From assembly GCA_002786065.1 (NCBI GenBank), contig NHNY01000027.1, positions 1 through 64,000 on the forward strand: a stretch of DNA of 64,000 bases. The letters run 5' to 3'. The notes below the pieces were generated by a model, which saw only the letters and a program-made list of their open reading frames with translations, ran no database searches and had not been told where the DNA came from. Of this stretch, positions 57,028-59,188 are shown piece after piece. How positions within the stretch are numbered: the stretch's first letter is position 1; every line of letters starts with the position of its first letter. The stretch is from Microcyclospora pomicola (lineage: Eukaryota; Ascomycota; Dothideomycetes; Capnodiales). Made by a program: the position numbers and the translations under genes.

Positions 57028-59188
57028 ATGGCAGCCATGAACCTTTCCTCCCACTTCTGCTCTCCTCCCAACCTCAGATATGCCCTGCGGAGCTCCTCGA
57101 GAGCGTTTTCCTCGTCTCAAGCACGAAACAGCTACGATGATACCGTGCAGAACCTCAAGATCGGCAAGCACACCCGGGTCATGTATCAGGGATTCACTGG
57201 TCGAGTGGCAACAAGCAATGCGAAGGACTCCATCGCGTGGGGAACCAACATAGTCGGAGGCGTGACTCCTGGCAAGGAAGGCGAGCATTTGGGTCTTCCA
57301 CTCCTACCTGATCTCAAGAAAGCCAAAGAGCAGTTGAAGCCAGATGCGACGGCGATTTTCGTGGCTGCACATCAGTGTGGACAAGCCATTGAAGATGCCA
57401 TCGAAGCAGAGATTCCACTGATTGTGTCGGTGGCTGAGCACATCCCGCTGCATGATATTATGAGGGTCAGTATGGAGAGACAGGTCTGATAGCACGTGTT
57501 GTGTTGGACTAATCGCTTGCCTACAGATTTCTAGCATACTCCAAACTCAATCAAAGTCTCGCTTCGTCGGAGCCAATTGTCCAGGAATCATCGCGCCCAT
57601 TGGCTTCTGTCGGATCGGTTTCCAGCCACTTCCTACATTCGCACCAGGTCACATCGGAATCGCCGCCAAATCTGGGACCCTCTCATATGAGGTCGTGGCG
57701 TCCGTGACGCGAGCCGGATTAGGCCAGAGTTTGGTGATTGGAATGGGTGGGGATATCATTGCCGGCACCAATCTTGTGGACTCCCTCAAAGTCTTCGAGA
57801 ACGATCCGGAAACCGAGGGGATCGTGCTTGTTGGTGAGGTTGGTGGCCGCGCCGAAGAAGACGCAGCCGAATGGATCATCGACTATCACAAGCGCGTGAA
57901 GAATCCAAAACCTATCGCTGCTTGTGTTGGTGGAATCTATGCTCCCCCAGGACGAATCATGGGTCATGCGGGTGCTTGGGCTTCCAAAGGCGATCGTCTG
58001 GCTGCCGAGAAGTACAAGATCTTCGAGAATGCTGGCGTTACAATGGTGGACCACCCCGAGAAGTTCGGCCCAGTCATGAAGAAGTTGCTGGATAAGAGTG
58101 GCAGGGACGTGAACAAGATCCAGCAAAATGCTGCTGCGACACAGAAGAGAGGATATCATACATCGACTCGCAGACCTGGCTCAAGTTTCGAGTCACGACC
58201 AACAAGAACTCAACAACAGCAACGGAGTCTGCATCTGCGACCAGATCAAGCTCAGGGACCTCTTGAGCCATATATCTCAAGCATTGAAGGGCTGTCTCTC
58301 GTCACGTCTGAAGCACCGACTGACGCCTTCTACCTCGCTATCACTGTTGACCGGAGTGCTCGCTCTCCTTGTATTGCAGCATCTCCCACTGTTGATGAGA
58401 CTACGCTGGGAAAACGGCTCCGGAAACACCCATACAATTGGTTCGAGACGCCATCTGATGCCGTGATCCAAGCGGCCATTTCTCATGCCCAGCTCGACTC
58501 AGCTCCTCCCGCGGCGAAAGCACAAGCTGCCGGCCTTCTGAACGCGCTCAGCAAAATGTACAAAGACAAAGAAGCCATAACTCTATCAGCCTCCGTGTCT
58601 GTAAGTAAGGATGGCAACTTGCAGGTCCACCAACCAAGTCTAGTCCTGCAGTTCGACGACTCCGCCTTCCGCACAATGAAACGACAGGAAGATATACATA
58701 GCCTTCGTGGCAAGGATAGAGAACATCCTTCCGAGATCGAAGCCGAGAAAGATGGCATTGTCTACGTGCATCTCGACGATCCAGCCGCGAACATTGGCAC
58801 ACTAGTCAACGGCGCCGGCCTCGCAATGAACACTGTTGACGCGCTACGTCAGCACGGGGGCATCGCGACCAACTTCCTCGACACCGGCGGCAAAGCGACG
58901 TCGGAGACGGTGAAGAAGTCGTTCGAGATCATCCTCAAGGACCCACGCGTCAAGGTCATCTTCGTCAACATCTTCGGCGGCCTGACGGATGGCGGCATGA
59001 TCGCCGATGGCATCTTGCTTGCATTCAAAGAGGTAGATATGAAGAACGTACCCGTCGTGGTCCGCATACGTGGTACGAACGAGGAGAAGGGTCAGAAGAT
59101 TATCGCGGAAAGCGGATTGAGCCTGGAGGCATTTGATGGCTTCGCGGAAGCCGCGAGTCGGGTGGTGGAGATTGCCAACGGGCGGTGA
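57028..59188 (+). CDS. Succinyl-CoA ligase alpha-beta fusion protein, mitochondrial, with truncated beta part
   Basis: Two exons, 57028-57465 and 57527-59188; 699 residues. The 61-nt intron is GTCAGT...ACAG with an ACTAATC branch. A presequence (MAAMNLSSHFCSPPNLRYAL, then RSSSRAFSSSQARNSYDDT) precedes a full alpha subunit: CoA-binding TRVMYQGFTGRVATSNAKD, GGVTPGKEGEHLG, GANCPGIIAP, GKSGTLSYEV-like AAKSGTLSYEVV, and phosphohistidine His293 in IMGHAGAWASKGD. After a linker with KRGYHTSTRRPG (about 353-364) comes the C-terminal part of a beta subunit: GTLVNGAGLAMNTVDALRQH, NFLDTGGKATSETVKKSFEI, KVIFVNIFGGLTDGGMIADG. The first part of the beta ATP-grasp domain is absent, and the segment where SucC has the metal-binding Glu/Asn reads SVSVSKDGNLQV. 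Ordinary succinyl-CoA synthesis is therefore doubtful. Matrix location inferred. Confidence 0.9.

Follow-up and report, generated by a model that had tools for sequence, protein, structure and literature searches.

The window analysed here, a 64,000-nucleotide stretch of the Microcyclospora pomicola genome (positions 1 to 64,000 of contig NHNY01000027.1), carries on its forward strand a two-exon gene (57028-59188) in which an alpha subunit of succinyl-CoA synthetase (SCS, succinyl-CoA ligase) is joined to a shortened beta subunit. To judge by sequence comparison, many filamentous fungi have this second, mitochondrial-looking, single-chain succinyl-CoA ligase besides the normal one. It is, by its conservation, a real SCS variant, and literature searches among open-licence papers aimed at fused or paralogous SCS yielded no paper on the fusion. 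We favour, with a probability of slightly under one half, a mitochondrial SCS paralogue composed of an alpha and a truncated beta chain, which would have given up the nucleotide site and kept the CoA/acid/phosphohistidine site. If true, this is a conserved, uncharacterised SCS branch that could not use ATP in the known way and has a changed CoA/acid site.

Gene layout and domain order

The gene starts with ATG at 57028 and ends with a stop codon at 59186-59188, exactly the span given in the original prediction, and encodes 699 residues; all its parts lie on the (+) strand. Exon 1 (57028..57465, residues 1-146) encodes a basic N-terminus (about residues 1-34) and the CoA-binding domain, matched in a Pfam scan by CoA_binding at residues 47-138 (57166-57441). 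A 61 nt GT-AG intron (57466..57526) separates it from exon 2 (57527..59188, residues 147-699 and stop), a single open frame for the rest of alpha, the joint and the shortened beta part. Further Pfam matches are Succ_CoA_lig (residues 186-327) and two Ligase_CoA stretches, the best at residues 572-692; no ATP-grasp family was matched up to E 1. Among the NCBIfam models, residues 45-335 cover nearly the whole SCS alpha model, and residues 411-697 correspond to residues 105-386 of the beta subunit SucC. The order of the Pfam and NCBIfam domains bears out the alpha-first fusion that had been proposed. The scores stay below the cut-offs of all four NCBIfam models, with 290.4 (cut-off 336) and 283.6 (cut-off 353.2) for alpha and 199.5 (cut-off 370) and 190.6 (cut-off 375.55) for beta. 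The alpha part is 45.0% identical to LSC1 of the same genome (331 columns) and 44.4% identical to Escherichia coli SucD (288 columns), the beta part 29.8% to the genome's own LSC2 and 32.6% to SucC. A motif scan also offered an in-frame intron at 58601-58651 (GTAAG...CAG), which would remove VSKDGNLQVHQPSLVLQ. It was rejected and the stretch is read as coding, because the alignment to SucC continues there past Pro200.

Distribution among fungi

Relatives were collected with the window protein, P0116 (residues 330-560) and P0093 (residues 1-420) as queries, which retrieved 1219, 757 and 1026 proteins at E <= 0.001. The best 120 of each search were listed, together 356 different proteins. The alignment comprises 220 relatives of 620-760 aa plus the window protein, i.e. 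221 rows; the other 136 of the 356 proteins were excluded, 131 as too short, 4 as too long and P0354 by the grouping rule. The rows fall, mainly by source list, into three groups of 81 (including the window), 30 and 110, and counts by group are given below in this order. Among the matches listed, 220 full-length relatives have the same fused layout. Since listed relatives with 57-88% identity to the window protein share it, the layout is far beyond chance.

Named rows come from filamentous ascomycetes (Recurvomyces, Zymoseptoria, Alternaria, Oculimacula, Aspergillus, Penicillium and Talaromyces), which we take to belong to the Dothideomycetes, Leotiomycetes and Eurotiomycetes. Three rows carry plant names (two Quercus suber, one Carpinus fangiana) and probably stem from fungal contamination of plant assemblies. 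Many rows are nameless; others are called hypothetical protein, CoA-binding domain protein, SCS-like protein or SCS subunit alpha, among other names. As several sources name fungal rows SCS subunit alpha, metabolic models may count the fusion as a second enzyme of the tricarboxylic acid (TCA) cycle. In Aspergillus flavus, an SCS beta gene has been deleted, and the available portion of that report does not mention the fusion (PMC12279275).

Among the best 120 of the 1219 matches to the window protein, 85 have at least 640 aa. The other 35 (495-568 aa) lack CoA_binding and come from the sources lgn, jgi or ena only. Their matches start at window residues 138-151 in 28 cases, near the exon 2 start at residue 147, and at residues 159-203 in seven. 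All 35 cross the joint in one open frame, which makes two separate genes unlikely.

Loss of the nucleotide site

Residues 379-560 (58223..58768) are a remnant of the ATP-grasp region. It begins with R379-S-L-H-L383 (58223..58237), equivalent to the start of mature LSC2, with R379 present in 219 and L381 in 218 of the 221 rows. As a counterpart of the first ~17 SucC residues is thus retained, the deletion that removed the nucleotide-binding lobe is internal and covers roughly SucC 18-103. The beta part had originally been described as the end of ATP-grasp plus the CoA-ligase domain. Both are kept, but so is the SucC start, so that it is not simply a C-terminal half. A complete ATP-grasp, named in the original prediction as contrary evidence, was looked for on the alignment and is absent: the positions of Lys46, Gly53 and Arg54 of the SucC ATP-grasp lobe are gaps in 221 of 221 aligned rows.

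At the metal site, the window protein has Ser500-Ala501-Ser502 (58586..58594) in place of SucC Glu197-Ile198-Asn199 and Gln515 (58631..58633) in place of Asp213. Glu197 is kept in 3/81, 29/30 and 102/110 rows (134/221 in total), Asn199 in 9/81, 1/30 and 1/110 (11/221) and Asp213 in 8/81, 1/30 and 17/110 (26/221). The predicted loss of metal ligands therefore holds for the window with its Ser, Ser and Gln, but a segment of the SVSVSKDGNLQV kind is typical of the window's group only. From these alignments, the loss common to all groups is that of the nucleotide lobe, and the metal ligand Glu197 is mostly lost in the window's group alone.

Kept and changed residues of the CoA/acid/phosphohistidine site

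The phosphohistidine loop and CoA site were expected to be intact, and the window protein indeed has the counterparts of three key SucD residues (PDB numbering). His293 (57965..57967) aligns with the phosphohistidine His246 and is found in 219/221 rows (80/81, 29/30 and 110/110), Glu250 (57836..57838) aligns with Glu208 in 221/221 and Glu137 (57436..57438) with Glu97 in 220/221 (80/81, 30/30 and 110/110). In the beta CoA-ligase domain (residues 572-692, 58802..59164), the NGA and FGG motifs are kept: SucC Asn264, Gly265 and Ala266 occur in 221/221 rows and Gly320/321 in 220/221. The beta-ligase half is strongly conserved, with 62 of 137 columns at 95% or more.

This site has also acquired near-fixed replacements, including a new Thr, Arg and Glu in the CoA-ligase domain. 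On the alpha side, these are SucD Gly20 to Ala (212 of 221 rows), Gly98 to His (219), Ser151 to Ala (218) and Arg152 to Lys (220), on the beta side SucC Val323 to Thr (218), Leu327 to Met (220), Glu350 to Arg (218) and Ala354 to Glu (220). In the tree sets, none of 39 canonical alpha rows has Ala at SucD 20 or 151 and one has Lys152; none of 40 canonical beta rows has Arg at SucC 350. Going by structures of SCS and ATP-citrate lyase (ACLY), the changed residues presumably line the acid and phosphate site.

The joint

The two halves are connected by a joint that contains the sequence QKRGYHT (residues 352-358, 58142..58162), which resembles a cleavage site of the mitochondrial processing peptidase (MPP) and Icp55. 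This motif is an addition to the original prediction. The yeast consensus, processed by MPP and then Icp55, is RX(Y/L/F) cut (S/A)(S/T) (PMC4986872). Across the 221 rows, Q352 is kept in 203, R354 in 212, H357 in 218 and T358 in 211, and a hydrophobic residue (Y, L, F, M, I or V) occupies position 356 in 219. The joints of 203/221 rows carry the pattern R-x-(Y/F/L/M/I/V/W/A)-H-(T/S), which the remaining 140,406 residues of the same proteins contain twice. At the 95% level, 3 of 39 columns are conserved in the joint and 0 of 34 in the N-terminal presequence. That a motif in a segment predicted to be disordered is more conserved than the presequence argues for a specific use. By its sequence, the joint resembles an internal mitochondrial cleavage site, from which we infer that cleavage may occur.

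The N-terminal 34 positions contain 0.6% Asp/Glu and 19.4% Lys/Arg over the 221 rows, as in mitochondrial presequences. Residues 357-385 contain 1.7% Asp/Glu and 22.5% Lys/Arg, compared to 11.6% and 10.2% in the folded parts. The joint continues into QQRSLHL, and the genome's own LSC2 has QRRNLSIHEY. Because an acid-poor, basic stretch leads into an LSC2-like start, the joint has the look of a former beta-gene presequence.

Predicted fold and ancestry

Structure prediction and comparison, one of the checks suggested at the outset, gave an SCS-like fold for both halves in AlphaFold2, with only the joint and the N-terminus disordered. In the model, residues 369-684 align to residues 1-385 of the SucC chain 9a7l_B (299 pairs) and residues 369-687 to residues 1-388 of E. 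coli 1jll_B (302 pairs). The placement of the halves relative to each other is gauged by a predicted template modelling score (pTM) of 0.83 alone, and the list of PDB matches mostly reflects the alpha half; it gives the best stretch per chain, so that a match of one chain to both halves would not show in it.

Phylogeny of both halves was likewise suggested. The alpha half falls inside the mitochondrial alpha clade (support 100/99) beside LSC1 of the same genome (85/81), with a stem of 1.45, in a tree that omits eight long or far branches and includes only two canonical eukaryotic alphas. A quick tree with those eight rows gives the same position (SH-like approximate likelihood ratio test, 90). 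In a free tree, the beta half lies outside three eukaryotic betas with a stem of 1.93. Joining it to the eukaryotic betas is not rejected by the approximately unbiased (AU) test (p 0.18 for the whole beta, 0.166 for the ligase domain, 0.19 with LSC2 alone). In the simplest history, mitochondrial LSC1 and LSC2 would have been duplicated and then fused, of which the trees support the alpha side alone.

A horizontal origin was considered and dropped. In a scan of prokaryotic contigs, limited to two peptide patterns, 38 stretches matched. It gave 12 loci, in all of which sucC and sucD are separate frames and not a fusion.

Divergent separate sucC and sucD genes were seen in six records of Alphaproteobacteria (L021-L025 and L027), most from rumen or other livestock gut. 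Their alphas form a deep branch of their own in the quick alpha tree (stem 2.59). Six of the 39 canonical alpha rows, possibly these, have Gln instead of Glu208. Also encountered were bacterial frames of roughly 970 aa whose start resembles SucD (109-121 bits), namely L055 (-, 972 aa) and L056 (2363-5272, +). Such frames (931-972 aa) occur in 7 of 40 genomes of the same phylum, and by eye they look like chains of the ATP-citrate lyase type.

Normal subunits in the same genome

The original prediction had asked if the genome also has normal LSC1 and LSC2. Six-frame family searches of 23.4 Mb in 58 contigs located both besides the window gene, a canonical LSC2 on contig C12 and LSC1 on contig C34; a normal succinyl-CoA ligase is therefore present. 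PF08442 (ATP-grasp_2) matches on C12 and weakly on C58, and not in the fusion gene. C58 contains a split ATP-citrate lyase: one frame has CoA_binding, Ligase_CoA and Citrate_synt matches, and frames on the opposite strand match Citrate_bind and the ATP-grasp domain of ATP-citrate synthase.

Proposed function and alternative explanations

In the superfamily, the ATP-grasp and CoA sites exchange phosphate by way of a histidine loop (PMC11494057). Without an ATP-grasp site, the fusion would exchange phosphate, acid and CoA only at the CoA site. The protein would be located in mitochondria and bind a CoA thioester together with a carboxylic acid other than, or besides, succinate. It would run only the nucleotide-free half-reaction, in which acyl-CoA and phosphate are interconverted with acyl phosphate or phosphohistidine and acid, and might be an enzyme that transfers phosphoryl or acyl groups, or else sense that state. 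Because the histidine and the glutamates are kept and new residues are fixed, an enzyme or sensor working without nucleotide is favoured over a dead relic. Of the original phrase 'partner-dependent, altered or regulatory CoA ligase', the fixed new CoA/acid residues favour 'altered'; the rest stay possibilities. Processing in the matrix, at the internal RGYHT site, might moreover yield alpha-like and beta-like subunits that stay together; if the favoured reading holds, the fusion may thereby add a case to the mitochondrial tandem precursors. A more specific scheme is tentative and rather doubtful: a widespread tandem of two SCS-like subunits would be cut by MPP and reassemble as a CoA/phosphohistidine enzyme that works without ATP on an acid substrate of its own. 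Under this scheme, a core fold of the TCA cycle would have become a transferase or sensor independent of nucleotides.

Several points weigh against this reading. The kept histidine and the new fixed residues could also belong to a binding or regulatory role. Thr323, Met327, Glu354 and His98 are not unique to the fusion, because some canonical rows have them, too (12/40, 5/40, 8/40 and 5/39, respectively). Cleavage sites of the R-x-hydrophobic type are loose, the N-terminal presequence has no such fixed residues, so that something else may account for the conservation of the joint, and the joint motif has His where the yeast consensus has Ser or Ala after the cut (PMC4986872). Expression data from Aspergillus niger, as far as tabulated in PMC5247736, include a second gene named SCS subunit alpha with 10.2, 8.4, 10.9, 6.3 and 6.3 fragments per kilobase per million reads (FPKM). 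The main alpha gene reaches 134.7-167.7, 14-23 times the weak gene at each time, and beta 136.5-187.8; both alpha genes and beta are marked mitochondrial (PMC5247736). We infer that the weak gene is probably this fusion; if so, its low transcription suggests a minor or conditional role.

Alternatively, the protein or its two pieces might replace a normal subunit among LSC1/LSC2 chains as a silent partner, thereby tuning or poisoning SCS. The position of the alpha half beside its own LSC1 within the clade of mitochondrial alphas, the SCS-like fold that both halves retain in the model and the coexistence of canonical SCS genes would fit such a role. A silent partner would have no need, however, to keep the histidine and the two glutamates, each present in 219-221 of 221 rows, and the weak A. 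niger expression (PMC5247736), if it concerns the fusion, is awkward for a stoichiometric partner, so we regard this as possible and somewhat doubtful. A released alpha-like chain could instead use the ATP-grasp of canonical LSC2 in trans and give SCS a second acid specificity, for which a full-length alpha half with an intact phosphohistidine loop and a cleavable-looking joint are suitable. We consider this improbable: the strong conservation of its own beta-ligase half would be pointless if LSC2 replaced it, and 45% identity to LSC1 makes a shared interface uncertain.

The fast beta half (stem branch 1.93) and the erosion of Glu197 to 3/81 in the window's group are features that a decaying pseudogene or relic might have. 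This is very improbable, since the frames are open and the catalytic residues fixed in rows from three fungal classes. Even less credit is due to a gene-model artefact that joined two adjacent genes. The joint is presequence-like, and to judge by one Penicillium record, merged models do occur beside this gene, but in the window a single exon contains the joint without any stop codon, and the 35 exon-2-like frames (of 120; 495-568 aa, lgn, jgi and ena only) all span it. A 960-aa Myotisia record (P0312) combines the fusion protein with a 4HBT thioesterase domain at 858-921; this was dropped as a functional clue, being a single record and probably a merged gene model.

Comparison with known systems

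With SCS (SucCD; LSC1-LSC2; SUCLG1 with SUCLA2 or SUCLG2), the fusion shares homology over both halves, the predicted fold, the CoA-binding domain, the phosphohistidine loop and the CoA-ligase domain. It differs in being one chain with alpha first, in the deleted ATP-grasp lobe and mostly lost metal ligands, in its fixed new CoA/acid residues and in scores that reach the NCBIfam cut-offs for neither subunit. In ACLY, the beta-like part precedes the alpha-like one, and a citrate-lyase domain is present at the C-terminus. In contrast to ATP-citrate lyase and citryl-CoA synthetase, the fusion has alpha first, and the Pfam scan gave no citrate-lyase domain match.

The nearest known architectural parallel, overlooked in the original prediction, is FdrA/AllF of E. 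coli, a 555-aa chain with CoA_binding (193-287), Ligase_CoA (336-491) and no ATP-grasp match. FdrA/AllF forms oxamic transcarbamylase together with AllG and AllH (PMC11326118). The fusion is not a member of this family, as it scores 23 bits against a cut-off of 433 with the FdrA model NF004760. FdrA residues 118-295 align to SCS alpha by profile, and the alignment is uncertain beyond residue 295. FdrA has Lys at Glu208 and Asp or Glu at His246, the latter in the uncertain part, whereas the fusion keeps both residues. Like FdrA/AllF, the fusion would be a natural experiment on the SCS fold without its nucleotide half.

ADP-forming acyl-CoA synthetases are shuffled versions of the same subdomains, in one chain in the case of Nmar_0206 (PMC11494057). 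Nmar_0206 keeps the ATP-grasp unit (PMC11494057), which in the fusion is broken and matches no ATP-grasp family. The yeast tandem precursor Arg5,6 is cut internally by MPP, and candidates exist in other fungi (PMC8847149, PMC8835746). Such precursors also have two enzyme-like parts in one chain and a basic, Arg-containing joint (PMC8847149, PMC8835746). The MPP cut is known for Arg5,6 and only a candidate in the fusion, whose halves are two subunits of one enzyme fold and not two pathway enzymes.

Neighbouring genes

The fusion gene adjoins a gene for a 175-aa protein without Pfam match (55747-56274, -). The end of this protein matches the C-terminus of P0264, a 903-aa record of Penicillium capsulatum (49% over 69 aa, E 8e-16), which starts with the fusion protein. 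Because P0264 joins the two, both genes may be neighbours in this distant fungus, too. A Cupin_8/JmjC-like open frame (59511-60596, +) lies directly downstream of the fusion gene and a gene for a cutinase-family protein (50753-51745, +) about 5 kb upstream. At the start of the window, long open frames of short repeats such as PLEKGPVDTGAVP (13-897 and 937-3726, +; candidate coding strand) are located where the GC skew of the window is strongest.
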